A stretch of 42,359 nt of DNA from Gammaproteobacteria bacterium RIFCSPLOWO2_12_47_11 (GTDB lineage Bacteria > Pseudomonadota > Gammaproteobacteria > Eutrophobiales > Eutrophobiaceae), in NCBI GenBank assembly GCA_001801885.1, contig MGYU01000058.1:1-42359 (forward strand), read 5' to 3'. The translations under genes and the position numbers were made by a program. The notes under the pieces were generated by a model, which was not told the origin of the DNA, did no database searches, and was given only the letters and a program-made list of their open reading frames with translations. Positions 24,418 to 38,281 of this stretch are shown here, in pieces (position 1 is the stretch's first letter; each line of letters starts with the position of its first letter).

Positions 24418-25614
24418 ATGAGTGTGACTGAGATGTTCCGTATCTCACAATATATGCAGGAAATCGTGCGTCCTTCCGCGTTAATGCCTGCAAGAACACC
24501 CACAGGTCCCGTAGTTATCTGGAACCTGATTCGGCGTTGTAACCTCGCATGCAAGCATTGTTATTCGATTTCCGCGGATTACGATTTTCCGGGTGAACTG
24601 TCAACTACTGAAATCCTTCAAGTCATGGAAGATCTCAGGTCATATGGTGTCCCGGTGCTGATTCTGTCCGGGGGAGAGCCCCTGTTGCACCCGGATATTC
24701 TTGTAATATCTGAAACGGCAAAAGCCATGGGATTTTATGTCGGACTCTCAACCAACGGTACTTTGATTAATGAACAGAACATCAAAGCGCTTGCGAAGAT
24801 TAAATATAATTATGTAGGCATCAGTATCGATGGTATCAAGGAAACGCATGATCATTTTCGTCGAAAACAAGGAGCATTCGATGCATCCATGCGGGCTATA
24901 CACCTGTGCCGGGAGCACGGGATTAAAGTTGGCCTGAGATTTACCATCACCAAGGATAATGCCCATGAGTTGCCCCGGGTGCTTGACCTGATGGAATCCG
25001 AAGGGATCGATAAATTCTACCTTTCACACCTGAATTATGCCGGACGCGGTAACAGAAACCGTAAAGATGATGCTACCCACCGGATCACAAGAGCAGCTCT
25101 GGATCTGTTATTTGACAGATGCTGGAATGATCTCCGGAGAGGCATACATCATGAATATGTTACTGGCAATAATGATGCCGACGGTGTCTATTTTCTGCAC
25201 TGGGTGCAACGGAATTTTCCTGAAAAAGCTGGGCATATCCAGGCAAAGCTGGAACAATGGGGAGGTAACAGTTCCGGGGTTAACGTGGCCAATATAGATA
25301 ATCTGGGCAACGTCCATCCTGATACCTTCTGGTGGCATTACAACGTTGGTAATGTCCGTGACCGGTCTTTTTCCAGGATATGGAAGGATACGTCGGATCC
25401 AATCATGGCAGGCCTCAAGCAGAAGCCCAGGAACATCAGCGGTCGATGTGGAAAATGCCAATACTTCAATATTTGTGGCGGCAATACCAGAGTACGTGCA
25501 TTGCAGTTAACCGGGGACGCCTGGGCGGAGGACCCGGCGTGTTATCTGAGAGACAGGGAGATCGGCTTATATCATCAGGATATGGGCGAAGATGTTTACA
25601 GCACTGTCGCGTAA
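24418..25614 (+). CDS. nirJ: Heme d1 biosynthesis radical SAM protein NirJ
   Basis: A 398-residue radical SAM/SPASM enzyme that replaces propionate side chains during heme d1 formation. Radical SAM cluster: 'RRCNLACKHCYS' near residue 42. 'LILSGGEPLLHPD' and 'LSTNGTLI' follow. A C-terminal Cys cluster in 'RCGKCQYFNICGGNTR', with a later Cys in 'DPACYL', is the auxiliary Fe-S site. It overlaps nirN by 23 bases. The alternative start ATG 24433 is close by. Confidence 0.96.
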   Translation: MSVTEMFRISQYMQEIVRPSALMPARTPTGPVVIWNLIRRCNLACKHCYSISADYDFPGELSTTEILQVMEDLRSYGVPVLILSGGEPLLHPDILVISETAKAMGFYVGLSTNGTLINEQNIKALAKIKYNYVGISIDGIKETHDHFRRKQGAFDASMRAIHLCREHGIKVGLRFTITKDNAHELPRVLDLMESEGIDKFYLSHLNYAGRGNRNRKDDATHRITRAALDLLFDRCWNDLRRGIHHEYVTGNNDADGVYFLHWVQRNFPEKAGHIQAKLEQWGGNSSGVNVANIDNLGNVHPDTFWWHYNVGNVRDRSFSRIWKDTSDPIMAGLKQKPRNISGRCGKCQYFNICGGNTRVRALQLTGDAWAEDPACYLRDREIGLYHQDMGEDVYSTVA

Positions 25615-27169
25615 CACTTACCAACTGCTTTCCGTTGTCATCATTAGTTTTTCGATAAATCCGGACGTCTGTGCCGATGCAGACATGCATGCATTGAATT
25701 TATACAGTCAGCATTGCGCGAGTTGTCACGGCGCTGACCGTCTGGGTGGAACCGGGCCGGCACTGCTGCCGGAAAATCTCACCCGGGTAAAAAAAGATCA
25801 GGCTTACAAGGCAATACTTGAAGGACTGCCGGCTACCCAGATGCCGTCTTTTCAACAGACGCTTGATGATACTCAGATCAGGTCACTTGCTGATTATATT
25901 TATACGCCCTTGCCTGAGATGCCCGTCTGGACCCTAAAGGAAATCACACAGTCACATATTCTTTACCAGTTAAAAAATCCGCAAAATGATAAACCTGTTT
26001 TTGCCGCTGATCCGCTCAATTTGTTTCTGGTTATCGAAACAGGCGATCATCATGCCACTGTTCTGGATGGCGATCGTATGGAACCGCTGTTCCGGTTCAA
26101 AACCCGGTACGCACTTCATGGCGGCCCGAAATTTTCGCCGGATGGCCGTTATGTTTATCTATCCTCGAGGGATGGATGGGTATCAAAATTTGATCTTTAT
26201 AATCTCGAACTGGTCACGGAAATCAGGGCAGGCATCAATACCCGTAATATAGCGGTATCAAATGACGGGCGCTATGTGATTGCGGGAAATTATCTGCCTC
26301 ATACACTGGTTATCCTGGACGCCCGGGACTTGTCGCCGGTAAAAATAATCCCTGTTGAAGACAGTTCAGGAAAAAGCTCCCGCGTGAGTGCCGTCTACGA
26401 TGCACCGCCCAGGAACAGCTTTATCGTTGCATTAAAGGATATCCCGGAAATTTTTGAAATTATCTACGATCAGAATGCGGGCCCTGTCTATACAGGCATG
26501 GTGCATGATTACCGTTATCATGAAGGTATTCCGGCGGATTCACCGTTCCCCATACGCAGGATCCGGCTTGACGATTACCTGGACGACTTTTTTTTTGACA
26601 GGGAATACCATAACCTGATTGGTGCGGCACGCAATGCAAAGGATGGCCAGGTTGTGAGTCTGATTGTGGGCAAGAAGATTGCCGATATCGATCTGTCCGG
26701 ATTGCCCCATCTCGGTTCAGGTGTGACATGGGAATACCGGGGCAAACCTGTTCTGGCAACTCCCGATCTTGAAGAAGGACTGGTCAGCGTTATTGATGTG
26801 GTTGACTGGAAAGTTATCAAGAAAATCAAAACACTGGGCCCCGGCTTTTTTATGCGTACGCACGAAAATACACCTTATGCGTGGGTGGATGTTTTTTCCG
26901 GGCCACATAAGGATGCAGTTCATATTATTGATAAAGCAACGCTCGAAATCGTTAAAACACTGGTACCGTCTCCGGGTAAAACATCCGGCCATGTTGAATT
27001 TACAAGGGATGGCCGTTATGCCTTGCTCAGTATCTGGGAGAACGATGGTGCGCTGGTTGTTTACGATGCAAGTACCCTGGAGGAAGTGAAGCGCATCACA
27101 ATGAATAAACCATCAGGCAAATATAATGTATATAACAAGATTAAAGGATCGGGCGGGACCAGCCATTAG
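25592..27169 (+). CDS. nirN: NirN, c-type cytochrome / d1 propeller dehydrogenase
   Basis: A 525-residue periplasmic NirS paralogue. NirN performs the last oxidation in heme d1 synthesis. A signal peptide is followed by a heme c site CASCH near residue 42 and the d1-binding propeller ('LHGGPKFSPDGRYVYLSSRDGW'). The end 'KPSGKYNVYNK' matches the NirS/NirN terminus. It lacks the 'PHPGRGAN' active-site block of NirS, which supports NirN. It is the last gene of the nir operon; no nirE follows. Confidence 0.93.
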   Translation: MFTALSRNTYQLLSVVIISFSINPDVCADADMHALNLYSQHCASCHGADRLGGTGPALLPENLTRVKKDQAYKAILEGLPATQMPSFQQTLDDTQIRSLADYIYTPLPEMPVWTLKEITQSHILYQLKNPQNDKPVFAADPLNLFLVIETGDHHATVLDGDRMEPLFRFKTRYALHGGPKFSPDGRYVYLSSRDGWVSKFDLYNLELVTEIRAGINTRNIAVSNDGRYVIAGNYLPHTLVILDARDLSPVKIIPVEDSSGKSSRVSAVYDAPPRNSFIVALKDIPEIFEIIYDQNAGPVYTGMVHDYRYHEGIPADSPFPIRRIRLDDYLDDFFFDREYHNLIGAARNAKDGQVVSLIVGKKIADIDLSGLPHLGSGVTWEYRGKPVLATPDLEEGLVSVIDVVDWKVIKKIKTLGPGFFMRTHENTPYAWVDVFSGPHKDAVHIIDKATLEIVKTLVPSPGKTSGHVEFTRDGRYALLSIWENDGALVVYDASTLEEVKRITMNKPSGKYNVYNKIKGSGGTSH

Positions 27170-27201
27170 ACGTCCCTGTCTAACAAATTATGGCCACCCA
27201 G

Positions 27202-27481
27202 TCACAAACCACTGAAATAGGCAGCCAGATTGTTGATGTCCTCATCGCTCAGCCCGGCAGCCATGGGTGCCATCATCGGATCTTTACGTGTTCCGTCCCT
27301 TAAGGCCTTCAGTTGCTTTACCGGGTAAGCAAATTTCTGGCCGGCAAGGTTCGGCCATAGAACATTTGCTGATACCTTCAGCGCCGTGACAGGCGGCACA
27401 CATTGCAGACCTGGTTTTACCGCCCGCAGCATCACCCTCGGCATAGGCTGATGCAGCCAGTAAAAATGAAATAATCAGCAT
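27202..27481 (-). pseudogene. Cytochrome c gene, frameshifted copy
   Basis: The remnant of a small periplasmic monoheme cytochrome. The first frame (27481 leftwards) gives a signal peptide and 'CAACHGAEGIS'. The second frame continues 'NVLWPNLAGQKFAYPVKQL...AAYFSGL'. Losing one A from the AAA at the junction would restore one frame. The product is nearly identical in plan to the intact cytochrome at 29993-30298, and the DNA is similar too. Both genes are followed, 20-21 bases past the stop, by the same 12-mer CGTCCCTGTCTA (27171-27182 and 29961-29972). This copy is either dead or affected by a sequencing error. Confidence 0.8.
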
Positions 27482-27560: not shown

Positions 27561-28928
27561 ATGCATTGTGAATACGTTCTTGATGTACCCACTGATTACA
27601 GACGGAACCTGGCTATTGTCTGGCTTTGGTTGGCTGTGTTGATGTTATTGGGTGCAGGGATATTCTCGGTATTGCTGGTACTGGCCAGGACACCAATGAT
27701 TGGAGAAATGATTCCTTTCGTCGATTTTTTTCACACGGCTCTGGTGATCCATGTCAATCTATCTTCGTTGGTATGGATATTGTCTTTTGCAAGTGTTTTA
27801 TGGAGTTTAAATAGCCGTTCGATTTTACCCTGGTTTGCGAAATTAATATTTGCTGTCGTGTTACTGGGAGCCTTAATAATTACATTTTCCCCTTTCCCTG
27901 GTAGTGCTAATGCAATTATGAGTAATTATATACCGGTCCTGGATAACCAATTGTTTTTAACCGGGTTAGCTATTTTTGGATTTGGCATCGGATTACAGGT
28001 TATTTTCAGCATGAGTGCGATGTTTAAAGTTGGTGAAGCAATTAGCGGGCAAGGTGTAATCCGATTTGGATTAAACTGTGCGGCTATAGGTGCCTTTATG
28101 TCACTGGCTGCTTTTGTCTGGTCATATATTGAATTACCGGTCCAGTTAACCGATGCAGTTTATTATGAACTTCTTTTCTGGAGTGGTGGACATGTGCTTC
28201 AGTTTACTTACACGTTATTGATGATGGTGGCGTGGTTATGGCTGTCATCAAGCGCAGGTATTTCTTTACCATTAAGTCCAAGGGTTGCTTTGTTTCTTTT
28301 TGGTGTAGGATTAATTTCTATTTTTATGACACCACTTGTTTACTATGCGTATGACGTCACTAATCCTTATCACCGCAAGATGTTTACCTGGTTAATGAGT
28401 TTTGGAGGTAGTCTGGCAATTTTCCCTTTAAGCGTGGCAGTTTTGTTTGCGCTGTTAAAGAAAAAACCGGATTTACCAGTTGAGGGATCTGCCTATACTG
28501 CATTGTTTACTTCATTATTATTATTTGGTGTTGGGGGTGTTATAGGTTTCATGATTGATGGCAATAATGTCAAAATTCCTGCACATTATCATGGTTGCAT
28601 TGTTGGGATCACTCTGGCTCTCATGGGATTATGTTATCAGCTATTGCCTCTACTGGGTTTTGATAAAGTTAATTTTACTCTCACCAGGTTACAGCTATGG
28701 ACCTACGCGACCGGACAGTTTCTGCACATTTTTGGCCTGGTCTGGTCAGGAGGGTATGGTGTAGAAAGAAAAGTAGCAGACGCTGCACAGGGACTGGACT
28801 CAATGGGTCGAGTTGCAGGGATGGGATTGATGGGACTTGGAGGATTATTGTCAGCTGCTGGCGGGTTTATATTTATTATCATCGTGATCAAAGCAATGAC
28901 AACGAAACTACACATTAAATACAATTAA
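27561..28928 (+). CDS. Divergent heme-copper oxidase-family subunit I (possible nitric oxide reductase)
   Basis: A very hydrophobic 455-residue protein with about 12 membrane spans. It aligns by motif with B-type (ba3-like) subunit I. Low-spin heme ligands are His64 ('LVIHVNLSSLVW') and His344, and high-spin heme ligand His342 ('PAHYHG'). The first CuB ligand is His211 ('FWSGGHVLQF'). The position of the cross-linked Tyr (+4) is Phe215, with Gln214 before it. The CuB His-His pair of helix VII is replaced by Tyr262-Ala263 ('TPLVYYAYDV'), with Asp265 nearby. Oxygen reduction as in a classical oxidase is therefore doubtful. The position after nirN suggests a nitric oxide reductase of a non-canonical type, but that is inference. 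No subunit II adjoins it. It converges with ctaA, overlapping by four bases. Confidence 0.75.
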   Translation: MHCEYVLDVPTDYRRNLAIVWLWLAVLMLLGAGIFSVLLVLARTPMIGEMIPFVDFFHTALVIHVNLSSLVWILSFASVLWSLNSRSILPWFAKLIFAVVLLGALIITFSPFPGSANAIMSNYIPVLDNQLFLTGLAIFGFGIGLQVIFSMSAMFKVGEAISGQGVIRFGLNCAAIGAFMSLAAFVWSYIELPVQLTDAVYYELLFWSGGHVLQFTYTLLMMVAWLWLSSSAGISLPLSPRVALFLFGVGLISIFMTPLVYYAYDVTNPYHRKMFTWLMSFGGSLAIFPLSVAVLFALLKKKPDLPVEGSAYTALFTSLLLFGVGGVIGFMIDGNNVKIPAHYHGCIVGITLALMGLCYQLLPLLGFDKVNFTLTRLQLWTYATGQFLHIFGLVWSGGYGVERKVADAAQGLDSMGRVAGMGLMGLGGLLSAAGGFIFIIIVIKAMTTKLHIKYN

Positions 28929-29896
28929 TTATATGTACGCTTTAGTTTAATCAACATCGTTAGATTAATCATAGCGAACAATAAACCCACAGCCAACAGG
29001 TTATGCAGCGTATTGGTCCACAATGGCATATTCGTTAATATGTTAACAACCCCTAAAATAAATTCAGCGCATAAAATGCATGTAAGAATCAACATGGGTT
29101 TAACCAATACTGGTTGGCGGTGCCTGATAATCTGTAACGCAGTAATTACCAATACCAACAACATTATCGCAATTACCCTGTGCGTTATTTGAATAATACT
29201 GGATGCTTCATCAATTATGAGATGATGATTATTGTCCAATTTCAATTCCCGGAAAATATTATAACTGTCGAGCAAATGACTTGACACATTATCCATGTAG
29301 GTACACGTCACCAATGCAGGGCAGGCAGAACCAGTGTAATTGGCACTGGCCCAGGCACCACTAATGAGTTGTAAAGTTACAGTTGCGGATAAAATTAGCA
29401 GAATAGGCGATCCGGGTTCGGTATTTCGAATCCGTGTTTGTAATATCTGTCGCCAGATCAGCCCGGCTAGGACTATACCTCCCAGTATATTACCCAGTGT
29501 AACAATAGGAACACTTCGTGCCGGAGTAACAATACCCAGTATGGAAAGAAATAACACGATAAAAAACATGAATACGGGTAAAACAGGCGAGATTGTCTTG
29601 CGATACCATAAAGTTATCAATAAGATGATTAAGATGTTAATTCCCAAAACACTAGCAATAAAGCGGTGCATCGCCCGAAAGTTCCTGAATTCAGTGTCAG
29701 GTATTTCTAGCCCCTTGATACCATCTACCATAGAAAGCTGTGCATAACATTCCGGCCAGGGACCACATCCCAAACCGGCCTCACCCAGTCTGATATGTGT
29801 ACTCAGGAAAACTATGAGCAGTGTAAGAATCAAAGCACTGCAATTCAGTAGAAAAAAAAACTTGTTTGAATATTGGTTGGATTTGTTATTCTGCAT
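28925..29896 (-). CDS. ctaA: Heme A synthase (CtaA/COX15 family)
   Basis: A membrane protein of about 323 residues with eight hydrophobic spans in two homologous halves. Conserved His residues occur in 'STHIRLGEAGLGCGPWPEC', 'RAMHRFIASVLG', 'ITHRVIAIML' and 'TLHNLLAVGLL'. The two Cys pairs, CGPWPEC and CPALVTC, are typical of bacterial types. The enzyme oxidises the methyl group of heme O to make heme A. Pairing with the lone oxidase-like gene suggests that protein may contain an A-type heme. ATG 29896 is chosen because it gives a normal leader; ATGs at 29917 and 29980 are in frame and none has a good ribosome-binding site. It lies downstream of the intact cytochrome c. Confidence 0.88.
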   Translation of the reverse strand: MQNNKSNQYSNKFFFLLNCSALILTLLIVFLSTHIRLGEAGLGCGPWPECYAQLSMVDGIKGLEIPDTEFRNFRAMHRFIASVLGINILIILLITLWYRKTISPVLPVFMFFIVLFLSILGIVTPARSVPIVTLGNILGGIVLAGLIWRQILQTRIRNTEPGSPILLILSATVTLQLISGAWASANYTGSACPALVTCTYMDNVSSHLLDSYNIFRELKLDNNHHLIIDEASSIIQITHRVIAIMLLVLVITALQIIRHRQPVLVKPMLILTCILCAEFILGVVNILTNMPLWTNTLHNLLAVGLLFAMINLTMLIKLKRTYN

Positions 29897-29992
29897 CGTT
29901 ATTTCAATCACGTTCATATGAAGTTGTTCATTTTTAAATGACAAGTGATTAAAATAAAGGCGTCCCTGTCTATTATCCATTTTAATTTGTTG

Positions 29993-30298
29993 TTACATAC
30001 TGCTGAAATAGGCGGCAAGATTATCAATATCTTCATCCGTCAGTGGGGCTGCCATGGGTGACATCATTGGATCTGTTCGTGACCCATCACGCAAGGCCTT
30101 CAGCTGTTTGACCATATAACCGAACTTCTGTCCCTTAAGGTTAGGCCAAAGATCATTTGGGCTGATGCCGTCAGCGCCGTGGCAGGCAGCACAGAGTGCG
30201 GCCTTTTCCTTGCCGGCGGCGGCATCTCCTGCTGCAGATACGATGCCAGCCAGACACATCAGTATCGATGTGGTAATCAATTTAGTGTATATATTCAT
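29993..30298 (-). CDS. Small periplasmic cytochrome c
   Basis: A 101-residue monoheme class I cytochrome, c553-like. A signal peptide ends at 'IVSAAGDAAAG', the heme site is CAACH, and distal Met candidates are in 'DPMMSPMAAPL'. The C-terminal helix is 'DEDIDNLAAYFSSM'. It probably donates electrons to a terminal reductase or oxidase; a neighbouring oxidase-like enzyme or NirS are candidates. It is the intact paralogue of the broken gene at 27202-27481. Confidence 0.92.
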   Translation of the reverse strand: MNIYTKLITTSILMCLAGIVSAAGDAAAGKEKAALCAACHGADGISPNDLWPNLKGQKFGYMVKQLKALRDGSRTDPMMSPMAAPLTDEDIDNLAAYFSSM

Positions 30299-31011: not shown

Positions 31012-31509
31012 TCAATAAAACTGGAAACTACTGTTGCGAAAATCAATCACAAACTGCTGCAGGGGGACAAGATTGATATTGATACCATCTTCATAATCAA
31101 ATCCCTCATCTCTGTTACTGTCTCTCAAACGTACTGTTAATTTATGCTGTCCGGGTGTTACCGGAATTTTTTCATATGCCGAGGCGGCACCATCATGGGC
31201 CAGGCCGGTTGGCGCGTATGATTTTCTCAATAATGTATTGCCATCCATTGTCATTTCAACGAGGACCGGGACCCGTTCCCTCGGACAATCCATGGGGCGC
31301 CGCATATTGGGAGCCAGTGCGGCAATTTCCTCGGGAGACAAACGGCGGCATTCTTCTTTATGTTGACTGGCATGGCTGAAACTCAGTTTGATTAATGCCA
31401 TTTCGGGATCGTGGTGAGTATAAGTGGGAGAATTGGAAAAATAGCCAAGCCCGATTGCAAACAGTGTGAAGGCAATAACCTGTCCGACAATATAGCGCAG
31501 TTCAGGCAT
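31012..31509 (-). CDS. Membrane-anchored hypothetical protein of the cytochrome b operon
   Basis: A 165-residue protein with one N-terminal membrane span (about residues 6-23) and an extracytoplasmic beta-rich domain. Two Cys occur in 'KEECRRLSPEE' and 'RPMDCPRER'. The later part, 'VTPGQHKLTVRLRDSN', looks like an immunoglobulin-like or transthyretin-like beta domain. I do not recognise the family. The start overlaps the end of the cytochrome b fusion gene by eight bases, which indicates tight coupling and likely a subunit or assembly role. Confidence 0.7.
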   Translation of the reverse strand: MPELRYIVGQVIAFTLFAIGLGYFSNSPTYTHHDPEMALIKLSFSHASQHKEECRRLSPEEIAALAPNMRRPMDCPRERVPVLVEMTMDGNTLLRKSYAPTGLAHDGAASAYEKIPVTPGQHKLTVRLRDSNRDEGFDYEDGININLVPLQQFVIDFRNSSFQFY

Positions 31510-33076
31510 GGGTTATCTCTCGATCATTTTCTGATGCTGCAGGTGGCGGTTGTTTCTCTGGCTGTGAAGATGCAAGATTTTTCAGCCGCATACGAAATGC
31601 TGCCAGTTCCCTGAAAAAATCCTTGCGGCGGGTGAGACCAGCCCAGAAATTCCCGATCCGTTCCCGTCCCACCCTCTGACGCAGGCGGGGATCACGTTCA
31701 CCGGCAATACGTGCATCAGTCCATTTGATACCAAGCCGGAAATAACAATCACCTGCACGACAACCGGTGAGAAAGACGCCATCGGCAAGTTTCTTCGATA
31801 GTACAAAATCAATAAAGGACGGGGGCAGCATACCGATGCATGGCATGGTCACGACACCTGCCCCGGTGCCTGCCATTTCTTCAGGGTTGAGGCTGTTCTG
31901 GCAGCCATAAACAATAACCCTGTCATTACCGATCAGTCGTGCTGATGCAGTAATTGTTTTTTCCCGCAATTCCTTAATAGGTTGATCGGGTAGTTCGATC
32001 CCCGGTGATAAATCTGATCTGCGCCGGAACGGGGTTGCAGTAGGGCAGGCACCGGCGCAGATACCGCAACTGGTGCAGTGACTTGCGTCAACAACCGCTT
32101 CGTGCTCGTAGGCACTGCCATCACTACGTGGTTCCATGGTAATCGCACTGAAGGGACAATCGGTGGCACAGCGACTGCAACCATTACAGTTATCAAGATT
32201 GACCACCGCAACCGGATTGCGTTGCCCCGGTGGCAACCAGGGTACCAGCAGCAGGAGTGCAGTCGCAGTTACGAGTAAAATCCAGACTGTTAGTCCCGGT
32301 ACGTAATCAAGTAGCGGGTATATTGACATGTAAAACCAGTCCAGCCCGACTACTGCCGGTACGGTAGCCAGATCCGCGGGTGCATTACTGAGTGCCGGTT
32401 TGGCAATTGACAGCACCAGCAACATAATAAATGTCCCCGCAGCCAGTTCCAGGGGCGGATTGACCCGGGGTGAAGCGTGTCTCTGGATATGGATCCACAT
32501 GATAAATAACAGGAATAACGGCAGTGCAATATGGAGAAAGACCATCAAGGTAAAAAACCGGCCGCTTAATGTCGTGTCGCTGAGAAAGTTACGTGCGATC
32601 GCTTCCCCGAATAGCGGCAGCGTGTCCAGCCATTCAGTGGTGGCGATGGCGATATACTGGGCAAGCGTATCCCAGACCATCCAGTAGCCGGTAATACCGG
32701 CGGAAAAAACAAACCAGAGCATGGGGACGCCGGTAAACCAGGCAAACCAGCGTGAACTCCGGAACCGGTCCATGGCGAATTCACGCAGCAGGTGAATCAT
32801 CATCATGATGACCAGTGCATCCGAGGCATAACGATGCAGGCTGCGCATGATGCCCCCTGCATACCATTGTTCATACGTCAGGTAATCAAGGGATTGGTAG
32901 GCCTCAGTAATTCCGGTGTCGAAGAAGATATAAAGGTATATACCGCTGATGATGACGATCCAGTAATAGAACCAGCCGAGCGCACCGAGTTGATAAAAGG
33001 GATTCCATTTTGGTCCAAAGAGAACGTCGAACCCGTCCTCAATATGTTCGAATCCCGCTCGTAATAATTTTTTCAT
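31502..33076 (-). CDS. Cytochrome b / 2[4Fe-4S] ferredoxin / MvhD-like fusion
   Basis: A 524-residue three-part protein. Residues about 15-230 are a bc1-type cytochrome b N-terminal domain with two bis-His pairs: His81-His95 and His182-His196, each H-x13-H. Two more hydrophobic spans follow. Residues 297-344 bind two [4Fe-4S] clusters: CNGCSRCATDCP and CTSCGICAGACP. Residues about 385-460 match the MvhD/FrhD iron-sulfur subunit family, with Cys392, Cys413 and 'GCRAGDC' (439-444). It could move electrons between quinol and a cytoplasmic iron-sulfur partner. No hydrogenase, Hdr or Rieske protein is encoded nearby, so the partner is unknown. A 155-base gap separates it from the SCO gene. Confidence 0.88.
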   Translation of the reverse strand: MKKLLRAGFEHIEDGFDVLFGPKWNPFYQLGALGWFYYWIVIISGIYLYIFFDTGITEAYQSLDYLTYEQWYAGGIMRSLHRYASDALVIMMMIHLLREFAMDRFRSSRWFAWFTGVPMLWFVFSAGITGYWMVWDTLAQYIAIATTEWLDTLPLFGEAIARNFLSDTTLSGRFFTLMVFLHIALPLFLLFIMWIHIQRHASPRVNPPLELAAGTFIMLLVLSIAKPALSNAPADLATVPAVVGLDWFYMSIYPLLDYVPGLTVWILLVTATALLLLVPWLPPGQRNPVAVVNLDNCNGCSRCATDCPFSAITMEPRSDGSAYEHEAVVDASHCTSCGICAGACPTATPFRRRSDLSPGIELPDQPIKELREKTITASARLIGNDRVIVYGCQNSLNPEEMAGTGAGVVTMPCIGMLPPSFIDFVLSKKLADGVFLTGCRAGDCYFRLGIKWTDARIAGERDPRLRQRVGRERIGNFWAGLTRRKDFFRELAAFRMRLKNLASSQPEKQPPPAASENDREITHA

Positions 33077-33231: not shown

Positions 33232-34116
33232 TTATGCCGTCGATTTATGCTGTCGCCAGGAACGCACCACAAAAATAGCAGTGGCACCGAGGGTGAGAAT
33301 ACCTATCCCGATAGCGATAAAGATTGAATAATCAAAACGGTAACGTTTCCTGGTTGGATCGTAGATTGTACAGAACAGACGAATGTTGTTTATCCAGCCG
33401 GTGAGAAGATCGGATTCCGTGTGCTTGCCGAACACCAGGTCCTTTAACGGTTCCACCAGGACGGGTGGTTCGAAATTATCACCATAGATCTGCCTGTAAA
33501 CACGTCCCCCGGCATCCAGTAGTGTTATCTGGGCAAGGTGATCAAATCCCTTTGGGGAGCGGAAATAGATAAAACCAAGTTCGCTACTGAGTGCATCAAT
33601 GGTGGATTGATCGGTGCTGAGAAATGACCAGATCGGCATATCAATACCGCGTTCTTTTGCGAATATACGCATTCGTTCCGGACTGTCTACCGCGGTATCA
33701 AACCCTACTGATATGACTGAAAAGCTGTCATCCCCCAATGCATCACGGGCAATCCTTACAACATCGGAGAGATGCTTGGTCAAAATCGGACAGGTATGGT
33801 AACAACTGGTATAGATGAGACTTACCAGCAGTGGCTTACCGAGAAATTGTGCCAGGTTTGTATCCTCTCCGTCACTGTTGGTAAAACGGTGATCTCCAAT
33901 ATTATTGCCCAGTGCCGACTGGCTGAATTTAAATGCCGCTGCTTCGTCCAGGGCAGGACCGCCGGAATGATGAGACTCCTCGTCATAGGAATAAGCAGGA
34001 TTGGTACCGGACAGTACCAGGAAAATAATAATTGACAGGAGGCAGCTGAAACGTATCAGACAATCAGGACGGATTATTTTTCCTCTGTCTGTTACTCCCC
34101 GCCATTTAACCGCCAT
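33232..34116 (-). CDS. SCO1/SenC family copper chaperone
   Basis: A 294-residue membrane-anchored thioredoxin-fold protein. N-terminal hydrophobic segment about residues 22-42; copper motif C-x3-C in 'TSCYHTCPILTKHL' near 110, with the distal His in 'GFDHLAQIT'. A C-terminal membrane span ('YSIFIAIGIGILTLGATAIFVV') is also present. SCO proteins deliver copper to the CuA site of subunit II; the adjacent subunit II with intact CuA fits. The start has AGGTGAT upstream, 20 bases after the subunit I stop. Confidence 0.9.
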   Translation of the reverse strand: MAVKWRGVTDRGKIIRPDCLIRFSCLLSIIIFLVLSGTNPAYSYDEESHHSGGPALDEAAAFKFSQSALGNNIGDHRFTNSDGEDTNLAQFLGKPLLVSLIYTSCYHTCPILTKHLSDVVRIARDALGDDSFSVISVGFDTAVDSPERMRIFAKERGIDMPIWSFLSTDQSTIDALSSELGFIYFRSPKGFDHLAQITLLDAGGRVYRQIYGDNFEPPVLVEPLKDLVFGKHTESDLLTGWINNIRLFCTIYDPTRKRYRFDYSIFIAIGIGILTLGATAIFVVRSWRQHKSTA

Positions 34117-34136: not shown

Positions 34137-35822
34137 TTATCTCAATGGCCATATTTCGGCCAGATATTTCCAGTTGACATAGTAATAGAGGACAAAGGTG
34201 GTAAAGAACACCGCTACCAGCACCATCGTACCGGGTACTGCGGGTGTTTCGGCACTGCCGTATTTCGCAACAACCGCGGCTTCCGGTTTATCCGGTTTTG
34301 CCTCTGCCAAGGTAATACGTTTGCCAAAGAAAACCGAGCCGACTGCAACAACGATAAAGATAATACCACCGAGACCGGCGAGTAGTGCGCTTATGCCATT
34401 CAATCCCATCATCAGGTTGGCGGCGCCCGGGAAATCGTAAGGCAGGACGGCATCCGCCAGTGAAATATCCCAGTGCCGTCGCGGTACACCAAGTGTACCC
34501 GCGCCCATCATAAACAGCGATATGCCGGTCACCCCCAGGCCGAACAGATACGGCTGCGCCCTGGCCCAGCCAGGCAGAATCAATTCGCGTTGAAAGATAA
34601 GCGGGATCAACAGGTAGGTCAATGCCATAAAGGCGAGTGTAGTCCCCGCTACAACGGTCGCATGAAAATGACCAACGACGTATATGGTGTTGTGAATAAT
34701 CAGGTTGATCTGCTCTACGCCCATGACAACCCCGGATATACCACCAAGGAAACCAAACAGGATCAACGAAATAAACATCCCTGAAAAAGCCGGGTTGCCC
34801 CACGGGGCCTTACGCAACCACTCAAACAGACCATTGGTGTAACCTTTCCTGCGTTGAGCCGCTTCGATGGAACCCGGAACTGTCAAGCCGTGGATCATGC
34901 TGCCGAGTACGGCCAGGTACATGGCATAACTGGTATTGAAGATCTTCCATTCTGAACTGATGCCCGGATCAACAAGTAAGTGATGAGCACTGGCCAGTTG
35001 CAGAAACAGGATGTACAGCAGGAATGCAAAACGGCTTACTTTTTCTGATAAGGGTTTCGCGCCCAGGGTAACTGCGGCAATGAGATACCAGACGGATATA
35101 TGGGCAGCCACATTGATCTGCTGCGAGGAGTGGCCAAACGCCCAGAAGACTGTCCGGTACATCAGGGTGTCTATGTGACTGACGAGTCCAATGGACCAGA
35201 GGAAAGTCGGGATAAGTATAATGGCACCGGATGCAATAGTGAATACCGCGATGATAGCAGCTGTTACGGCACCGAAAGTTACCAGTGGGACCGAACCTTC
35301 ATAAGTGCGCTCCTGTTTGGCAATGACCAGGGTTCCGAAAAATATAAAACAGCCAATCAGGGCGCCAACAGCGAAAAGTATATATCCGAGATAGAAATGA
35401 GGGGCCGCCTTTAACGGTACGTAGGCAGTGAACAACACGCTGGAATGGCCCTGCAAGACAGCAATATTAATCATGACTGCGCCAATCAACATCAGGGCAA
35501 AACCGGCCCAGGCTATCCGCGGTGTAGCCAGCCGGCAGCCCAGCAAGACTGCAGATGCAAAATAGAGTACCGCCACTTCGAAAAATATGATCCACACCAC
35601 AAGGACATTGAGACCATGTGCCGTGAGCACAAGATAAAACCACTCTGCGGGAAGCAGATGGACTGCTTTCCAGCGGGTCAGTGCCACCATCAGGCCAAAT
35701 AGCCCCCCGATTGCAAGAAAGATTATCGCAATTACAGCATTGGCCTTGATCAGATTTTCAGCTGATCGATAGACACGTAACCCGGTCGCAGGACAAATAC
35801 GGTATTGTTCATTTATTGCCAT
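34137..35822 (-). CDS. B-type heme-copper oxidase subunit I lacking the active-site Tyr (possible NO reductase)
   Basis: A 561-residue integral membrane subunit with about 13 spans, similar in layout to cytochrome ba3 subunit I. Ligands present: His69 ('LTAHGLNVL'), His231 ('FWAFGHSSQQ'), the His280-His281 pair ('ASAHHLLVDPG'), and His385 and His387 ('VVGHFHAT'). The residue at His231+4, where oxygen-reducing A- and B-type oxidases have a cross-linked Tyr, is Gln235. Helix VII also lacks the Tyr used by cbb3 oxidases. Loss of this Tyr is a hallmark of nitric oxide reductases within the superfamily. It follows the CuA subunit II gene by 11 bases. The NO reductase role is inferred; a true but unusual oxidase remains possible. 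Confidence 0.88.
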   Translation of the reverse strand: MAINEQYRICPATGLRVYRSAENLIKANAVIAIIFLAIGGLFGLMVALTRWKAVHLLPAEWFYLVLTAHGLNVLVVWIIFFEVAVLYFASAVLLGCRLATPRIAWAGFALMLIGAVMINIAVLQGHSSVLFTAYVPLKAAPHFYLGYILFAVGALIGCFIFFGTLVIAKQERTYEGSVPLVTFGAVTAAIIAVFTIASGAIILIPTFLWSIGLVSHIDTLMYRTVFWAFGHSSQQINVAAHISVWYLIAAVTLGAKPLSEKVSRFAFLLYILFLQLASAHHLLVDPGISSEWKIFNTSYAMYLAVLGSMIHGLTVPGSIEAAQRRKGYTNGLFEWLRKAPWGNPAFSGMFISLILFGFLGGISGVVMGVEQINLIIHNTIYVVGHFHATVVAGTTLAFMALTYLLIPLIFQRELILPGWARAQPYLFGLGVTGISLFMMGAGTLGVPRRHWDISLADAVLPYDFPGAANLMMGLNGISALLAGLGGIIFIVVAVGSVFFGKRITLAEAKPDKPEAAVVAKYGSAETPAVPGTMVLVAVFFTTFVLYYYVNWKYLAEIWPLR

Positions 35823-35833
35823 TTCTATGTCCC

Positions 35834-36370
35834 CTATTTTTCAATCACGTACATTCTGCCCACCATGGTGTGATGGCCTATACCGCAAAATTCGTTACAT
35901 ACTATTCCGTATTCACCGGCCTTATCGGGCTTGGCAGTCAGAACCATTTCATAGCCCGGGTGGATTTGCAGATTGATATTGACCGGTTGTAAAGAGAATC
36001 CGTGCAGCCAGTCCATGGATGAGATATGCAGACGGTAGCTCTGATCTTTTTCCAGTTCCAGAATAGGCCACCATTGCCAGAGACGGGCAATCAGATAGAC
36101 ATCACTTCCCGGTGGCGGATGCACAACCGGAAAACCGGCCTCATCACGTACCTTGTACTTTTCAATCATGGTGTTGGTCCTGGCGGCGAAATCCTCTGCA
36201 GTAATACGATAGGCCTCGTTTGACAGGTTCTGTTCTCCGACAGCATGCCAGTAGATCATCATGAAAAACATAATCAGGCCCCATATAAAGCCAACGATGA
36301 TCCATATCAATTCGGATTTGGGGATGGGTTCATTCCACCAGAGCTTTTCCTGCGGAGGGCTTATAGACAT
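35834..36370 (-). CDS. CuA-containing oxidase subunit II
   Basis: A 178-residue subunit with one N-terminal membrane helix (about 22-42) and a periplasmic cupredoxin domain. The CuA motif is complete: His in 'MDWLHGFSLQP' and CNEFCGIGHHTM (C-x-E-x-C-x3-H-x2-M) near the C-terminus. It therefore accepts electrons from a soluble cytochrome c. The short single-helix form is that of B-type enzymes. Confidence 0.93.
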   Translation of the reverse strand: MSISPPQEKLWWNEPIPKSELIWIIVGFIWGLIMFFMMIYWHAVGEQNLSNEAYRITAEDFAARTNTMIEKYKVRDEAGFPVVHPPPGSDVYLIARLWQWWPILELEKDQSYRLHISSMDWLHGFSLQPVNINLQIHPGYEMVLTAKPDKAGEYGIVCNEFCGIGHHTMVGRMYVIEK

Positions 36371-37380: not shown

Positions 37381-37550
37381 ATCATCCAGTCACGTACTTC
37401 AACCGGTATTTATCCCAACCGAACTATTGGCGGTCCTCATACGCGATTATGGGGCACCTTGCCAGACAGGTTTCTGTGTGCAGCATTAACAGATGACTCT
37501 CTCCATGGGGATATTTAATGAAAAACTGGACAGTTTTGGGTTATATTGCC

Positions 37551-37564
37551 TTGACCTTAATCAA
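37551..37564 (+). promoter_or_regulatory. FNR/DNR-type box at the 5' end of dnr
   Basis: TTGACCTTAATCAA, nine of ten match. It ends six bases before the ATG at 37571. In this position it would more likely block than activate dnr transcription, suggesting autorepression. Confidence 0.5.
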
Positions 37565-37570
37565 GTCATC

Positions 37571-38281
37571 ATGACTGCCATTAGAAATATGCTGCAGAAT
37601 AACGGGCAAATTGCCATAGAGTTCACCACAATTCCGATTTTTTCCGCCCTGAATAAGGCACAATTCCACACCGTATTGTCTACAGCAACCAAAATAGACC
37701 TTGTAGCCGGAGGTGTTCTTTTCCGGCAGGGACAACATGCCAATCATTTTTATTTTGTCCATGATGGCCAGATGCGATTGTCACGGCTTGCAGAAGATGG
37801 CAGTGAAAAGGTGATGGATATTGTTCACACCGGCCAGATGTTTGCTGAAGCCGTGATGTTCATGCCGAACCGGTGTTACCCGGTTAATGCAGCGGCCATC
37901 CAACCGAGTCATTTAGTTGCCTTTGATATGGAAACATTCAGAAATATATTAAAAGAATCCGTGGACACCTGTTTCCGGTTAATGTCCACCATGAGTCAGC
38001 GGTTGCATGTACAATTGAACGAGATCGACAGTCTGAGTCTGCATAATGCAACATACCGGCTGGCCCATTATCTGTTAAAATCGGTTCCGGAAAATTCAGC
38101 CGGGCAGACCGAATTCACCCTGGGTTATCCGAAAAACATACTGGCATCACGCCTGTCCATCCAACCGGAAACATTCTCGCGCATCATGGCACGCCTTAAG
38201 CGTGAAAACATAGTGGTTGTACAGGGTAACCAGATCGTTTTTCACGATATCCCCGCACTGCGGAAGTTGCTAAGCGAATAA
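37571..38281 (+). CDS. dnr: Crp/Fnr-family regulator, DNR type
   Basis: A protein of about 236 residues. The N-terminal cyclic-nucleotide-fold sensor carries 'GVLFRQGQHANHFYFVHDGQMRLSRL' features and 'FAEAVMFM'. A dimer helix with 'LNEIDSLSLHNATYRLAHYLL' follows, then a helix-turn-helix ('ASRLSIQPETFSRIMARL'). No N-terminal Cys cluster is present, so it is not FNR itself. The sequence resembles DNR, the heme-based NO sensor that activates nir and nor promoters. Its Glu/Ser/Arg recognition residues fit TTGAT half sites, which occur several times in the window. The frame is open to 37493 but a box lies inside that extension, so ATG 37571 (or 37589) is favoured. Confidence 0.87.
   Translation: MTAIRNMLQNNGQIAIEFTTIPIFSALNKAQFHTVLSTATKIDLVAGGVLFRQGQHANHFYFVHDGQMRLSRLAEDGSEKVMDIVHTGQMFAEAVMFMPNRCYPVNAAAIQPSHLVAFDMETFRNILKESVDTCFRLMSTMSQRLHVQLNEIDSLSLHNATYRLAHYLLKSVPENSAGQTEFTLGYPKNILASRLSIQPETFSRIMARLKRENIVVVQGNQIVFHDIPALRKLLSE

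Follow-up and report, generated by a model that had tools for sequence, protein, structure and literature searches.

The window analysed here, a stretch of 42,359 nucleotides, encodes a membrane protein that belongs to the heme-copper oxidase (HCO) superfamily by its fold, its PF00115 profile and its heme-ligand histidine positions. As read from the sequence alignment, the heme-ligand positions are intact and the three-His metal site cannot form. It represents an unnamed family, widespread in bacteria, for which the fold, homology, monophyly, conserved heme-ligand positions and ancestral loss of the CuB His-His pair are established, together with recurrent adjacency to CtaA, CtaB, SCO, SURF1 and HCO operons and co-occurrence with CtaA. 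Our leading interpretation, held with slightly less than even confidence, is that a hemoprotein of the HCO fold has here been turned into an accessory of heme A synthesis, heme A hand-over or enzyme assembly. A published account describes the route of heme A from CtaA into subunit I as unknown and anticipates additional assembly proteins (PMC9145763). The family is common, has the oxidase fold and no CuB site, and is steadily linked to CtaA, which makes it a candidate for heme A transfer. It is also an annotation hazard: in metagenomes its genes can easily be tallied as subunits of cytochrome oxidase or NO reductase, although the three-His site cannot form in their products.

An oxidase fold without the CuB histidine pair

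In a Pfam profile search of the 455-aa protein, COX1 was the sole match (E 1e-15, 58 bits against a cut-off of 34.8), and an NCBIfam profile search gave no usable match. Neither single-sequence nor profile search found a PDB relative, which is why a fold search was used. The AlphaFold2 model, built on a 14-sequence alignment with one of five models good, is all-helical (pLDDT 70, pTM 0.78), and its top structural matches in the PDB were subunit I of the Thermus thermophilus ba3 oxidase (TMq ~0.75, 18–20% identity), followed by aa3, cbb3 and cNOR structures. Compared with ba3 subunit I, the protein is shorter and lacks the equivalents of the CuB His pair and the Tyr. Given the medium quality of this model, and with its coordinates absent, residue geometry was deduced from the alignment. 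Searches for plasmid and viral relatives found none, and kinship with NnrS (PF05940) was rejected at an hhalign profile probability of 0.2%. Against orthologues 76–85% identical, dN is 0.10–0.15 with saturated dS, which indicates that the protein is maintained and led us to reject a pseudogene.

Residues were counted in an alignment of 90 family members and 25 eNOR-type subunits I, the latter being relatives of the window's second HCO (Table 1). The first-pass annotation had reported His64, His211, His342 and His344 in this reading frame, with Phe at the position of the oxidase cross-linked Tyr, and all of these are present. It was also right that the helix VII HH pair is lost, although it had placed the lesion at Tyr262-Ala263; the alignment with the 25 eNORs moves the site two residues, to V260-Y261, and the window's own eNOR, with a His(VI)-to-HH spacing of +49, gives the same placement. 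This rules out a normal CuB, and the lesion is shared by the 90 members, none of which retains HH: position 260 is His in 0/90, while position 261 is Tyr in 42/90 and His in 21/90. For the members with His261, a two-His metal site at most appears possible from sequence. In the window protein, His211 is the sole CuB-type ligand remaining, and V260-Y261 stands where a functional heme-copper enzyme has the HH of its three-His CuB/FeB site. Chance, sequencing error and decay were rejected as causes of the loss, given 0/90 His260 against HH in all 25 eNORs. The eNOR K-path Tyr (column 226) is lost in the family too, and the loss of the CuB His-His pair, the cross-linked Tyr and the K-path Tyr is ancestral to the monophyletic family.

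The surroundings of the site were also reconsidered. An acidic, FeB-type metal ligand had been proposed from a Tyr-Ala-x-Asp segment. Asp265 is indeed present in the window protein, but D is found in just 25 of the 90 members and the segment is unconserved, so that an acidic NOR-like ligand is unsupported; eNORs, moreover, carry an aligned Asp/Glu besides their HH. The conserved pocket residues are instead H211, Q214, W207 and M279, with W207 invariant and Y343 invariant or nearly so across the 90 members.

Table 1. Genes of the window and residues of the CuB-less protein, with counts among 90 family members and 25 eNOR-type subunits I
Feature	Position	Strand	Remarks
nirN-like cytochrome c/d1 protein, upstream of the CuB-less protein	25592..27169	+	Cytochrom_D1 domain
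CuB-less HCO subunit-I-like protein	27561..28928	+	ORF exact; 455 aa, ~12 predicted TM helices
His64, helix II low-spin heme ligand position	27750..27752	+	90/90 family, 25/25 eNOR
His211-x-x-Gln214, helix VI	28191..28202	+	H211 and Q214 each 90/90
Phe215, oxidase cross-linked Tyr position (His211+4)	28203..28205	+	F 76/90; eNOR Gln 25/25
Val260-Tyr261, lost CuB His-His position, helix VII	28338..28343	+	eNOR HH 25/25
Asp265	28353..28355	+	D 25/90; aligns with D/E of eNOR HHLLVDP
Met279, helix VIII, near-invariant	28395..28397	+	88/90; Ala in eNOR
His342-Tyr-His344, helix X heme ligand positions	28584..28592	+	H342 89/90 (one X), H344 90/90
His389, helix XI	28725..28727	+	74/90, typical of CtaA-linked members; missing from 16 divergent members
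Arg403-Lys404, periplasmic heme-propionate loop position	28767..28772	+	90/90
CtaA (COX15-CtaA) paralogue, E57R + H123N	28925..29980	-	Pfam E 2e-25
Small c-type cytochrome	29993..30298	-	
eNOR-operon conserved protein	31012..31509	-	Cluster in 10 loci
Cytochrome b / 2x[4Fe-4S] / FlpD fusion, eNOR operon	31502..33076	-	
SCO1/SenC copper chaperone	33232..34116	-	
eNOR-type subunit I	34137..35822	-	Intact GH..QQIN and HH, Gln at Tyr position
eNOR subunit II	35834..36370	-	Complete CuA motif CNEFCGIGHHTM
Crp/DNR-type regulator gene	37493-38281		

In a tree of 82 HCOs, made by a quick method and with long branches, the 49 family rows form a single clade on a long stem (SH-aLRT 100), with eNOR as its sister (SH-aLRT 98). 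The two groups share 28–29% identity, the fold, the heme-ligand positions and often one operon. On the other hand, eNORs have the HH pair, Gln at H+4, the K-path Tyr and a CuA subunit II, whereas the window protein has Phe215, V260-Y261 and no adjacent cupredoxin or CuA subunit II. Published NOR signatures at the Tyr position are E, Q, N and D (PMC8756737), and Phe215 corresponds to none of them. The cNOR/qNOR, sNOR and gNOR types, for which NO reduction was shown or proposed, also belong to the HCO superfamily; they differ at the diagnostic position, which is occupied by Glu, Asn or Asp in them (PMC8756737, Table A4) and by Phe215 here, where HH is lost as well. It was stated in 2013 that copper is held by three His in all HCO family members (PMC3578206). 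A description of a CuB-less HCO family was not found in the open-access literature, a result that does not prove its absence.

Distribution and linkage to heme A synthase

Family profile matches (E < 1e-30) were obtained in 46/369 genomes of the class and 59/399 of the phylum, which amounts to ~13–15% of the sampled Pseudomonadota genomes. A locus survey, based on longest-ORF gene calls and HMM labels, covered 93 family genes in 80 genomes. In 31 of the 93 loci, no more than 500 bp separate the family gene from a CtaA match, and in 44 the distance is at most 11 kb, in four arrangements (divergent, convergent, family gene followed by CtaA in an operon, and CtaA followed by the family gene). The chance expectation is ~0.13% per gene, and the binomial figure is naive in that it ignores relatedness; nevertheless, the linkage is independent in several genera and family groups. 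Among 35 distinct adjacent pairs, distances between family proteins correlate with those between the CtaA proteins (r = 0.45, 0/2000 permutations, organism phylogeny ignored); in this set, CtaA position 123 (alignment column 238) is H in 25 and N in 10. Genome G585 holds two family copies (loci L221 and L222), each directly upstream of its own CtaA, one canonical and the other an H123N form ending an eNOR operon. Genome G521 apparently also has two copies, each before its own CtaA.

Presence of the two genes agrees with this linkage. Within the class, CtaA occurs in 16/16 family-positive and 106/169 family-negative genomes (Fisher p = 0.0015, kinship ignored), so that both recurrent linkage to and co-occurrence with CtaA, the pattern sought for an assembly factor, were found. 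Among the CtaA-bearing genomes of the class, 6 of the 16 positives lack SURF1, compared with 7 of the 106 negatives (p = 0.002, kinship ignored); SURF1 is also absent in 32/33 family-positive genomes of other classes, a contrast confounded by phylogeny. CtaA is absent in 5 of the 80 positive genomes, four of which carry divergent-type members beside ResB or CcsA, and the fifth is 93% complete.

These divergent members form a clade of 12 tree rows (SH-aLRT 96) without H389, which accompanies the cytochrome-c heme ligase CcsBA in place of CtaA. Many of the divergent members surveyed (L088-L098 and L102-L105) adjoin ResB (PF05140) and CcsA/Cytochrom_C_asm (PF01578), and a gene for a multiheme cytochrome c is frequently present as well; all three divergent members checked have C-terminal TPR repeats.

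The family gene also keeps company with terminal enzymes. With variations, it ends eNOR operons in L204, L219 and L221, in the order subunit II, eNOR, CtaB, SCO, cytochrome b-ferredoxin fusion, unknown and family gene, and it adjoins aa3 operons with SURF1 and/or CtaB in L214, L226-L230 and L232. The adjoining aa3 and eNOR operons are complete, each with its own CuB. In group f207, from another class of the same phylum (L106, L222 and L233), a CuA-type cupredoxin gene with the full CuA motif immediately precedes the family gene and a canonical CtaA. No recurring subunit-II neighbour was found outside this group in the loci inspected.

Possible roles: accessory of heme A assembly or heme-only enzyme

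In the reading that we prefer, the protein would be a diheme membrane protein that kept the HCO fold and gave up the heme-copper active site. As a partner of CtaA, it may take part in making heme A or in passing it to a real heme-copper enzyme, presumably the neighbouring eNOR here and the aa3 oxidase in other genomes. It would bind two hemes and no CuB-like metal and would contact CtaA, acting either as a heme holder, in a role like that of SURF1, or as an electron relay for CtaA; of these two, we lean moderately toward heme holding and hand-over. The main reason for an assembly role is that the CtaA-linked and the divergent groups both keep company with heme-modifying or heme-attaching machines, and it is further preferred because the host genomes have CuB enzymes of their own. 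The genomic company (CtaA, CtaB, SCO and an oxidase operon) and the role proposed here in heme A hand-over resemble those of SURF1 and CtaM, factors of heme A insertion and oxidase assembly, although SURF1 has two TM segments and CtaM/DUF420 four or five, folds unrelated to that of HCOs (PMC9145763). Several points argue against an accessory role. Adjacency to CtaA could be expected of a protein with a need of its own for heme A, which is the case for many HCOs, and the subunit II, subunit I and CtaA order of group f207 resembles the operon of an enzyme. Several clusters contain both SURF1 and the family, so the protein is no plain SURF1 substitute; strict SURF1 replacement was rejected on the finding of both genes in one cluster in five genomes.

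The most serious competitor, to which we give a clearly smaller but still appreciable probability, is a CuB-less redox enzyme with two hemes, which would be fed electrons by a CuA subunit II or a c-type cytochrome and let NO, O2 or another small ligand react at the high-spin heme near H211, with no three-His metal. The invariance of both heme-ligand sets and of the propionate Arg-Lys is consistent with it, as are the position of the gene in or beside eNOR operons in the window and several relatives, some with nir genes, and the His261 of 21 members, where a two-His site is possible. Against it, the CuB His260 is never present, the Tyr at H+4 and the eNOR K-path Tyr226 are lost, the proposed Asp ligand is unconserved, and most loci lack a subunit II and commonly have complete aa3 or eNOR operons alongside. 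It keeps its weight because of the subunit-II gene directly upstream in f207 and the possibility that the protein has heme A of its own. This alternative is nearest to the suggestion of the first-pass annotation, which suggested a second, distinct NO-reducing or NO-sensing enzyme. A specific role in NO reduction is unsupported: heme A synthase recurs most often as neighbour, aa3 operons in stretches without nir genes also adjoin the family, and the window already has a candidate eNOR, whose three-His site is intact and which comes with a CuA subunit. The evidence speaks neither for nor against NO sensing. The window's NO reductase is likely this neighbouring eNOR (34137-36370).

Membership in the published putative NOR family nNOR seems rather unlikely. 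nNOR was reported to be B-family-related (PMC11388526), which would suit a family that is sister to the B-side eNOR, but the genomic context favours assembly over NO reduction. We regard it as improbable that the protein is a membrane sensor which detects gas or redox state through heme and passes a signal to the genes for oxidases or denitrification. Such a role would fit the one free coordination site to be expected at the high-spin heme and the Crp/DNR-type regulator gene in the window, but the protein has no signalling domain and its most recurrent neighbour is CtaA rather than a regulator. Least credible by far is a degenerate eNOR duplicate retained by chance next to its parent. The sister relationship to eNOR and the frequent position beside it would fit such an origin, yet conservation contradicts it, with monophyly across many family groups, invariant heme-ligand positions and strong purifying selection, and much of the family's linkage is to CtaA.

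The window neighbourhood and its variant CtaA

The placement after nirN and beside CtaA, as first described, was borne out. CtaA lies tail to tail with the family gene, the two overlapping by 4 bp. This CtaA is a variant, and the window genome also encodes a canonical CtaA, next to its aa3 oxidase. In the divergent CtaA proteins of family-linked or eNOR-bearing loci, Glu57 is lost and H123N is found in 16/16, the window's included; all 16 keep the C-terminal heme ligands, and the canonical neighbours keep Glu57 and His123. Degli Esposti et al. (2021) list an "E57K and H123N" subtype of CtaA, with the family and eNOR context absent (PMC8239418). In yeast Cox15, the Glu equivalent to Glu57 is essential, and heme O is likely bound in the N-terminal half (PMC13213658).

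Also as first described, no subunit II adjoins the family gene in the window, the nearest being that of the eNOR. The eNOR label of this second HCO is provisional, assigned from the Gln at the Tyr position and from its best plasmid matches, which are from Thermus, Thermomicrobium and haloarchaea. Within the operon, the cytochrome b, ferredoxin and FlpD fusion, whose FlpD domain is MvhD-like, is conserved in eNOR operons (a cluster in 15 loci) and is possibly an electron route to the NO reductase. The conserved protein encoded next to it had no match in Pfam or NCBIfam. Between nirN and the family gene, a minus-strand reading of positions 27201-27368 is apparently a broken copy of a small cytochrome c gene, 74% identical to the intact gene at 29993-30298.
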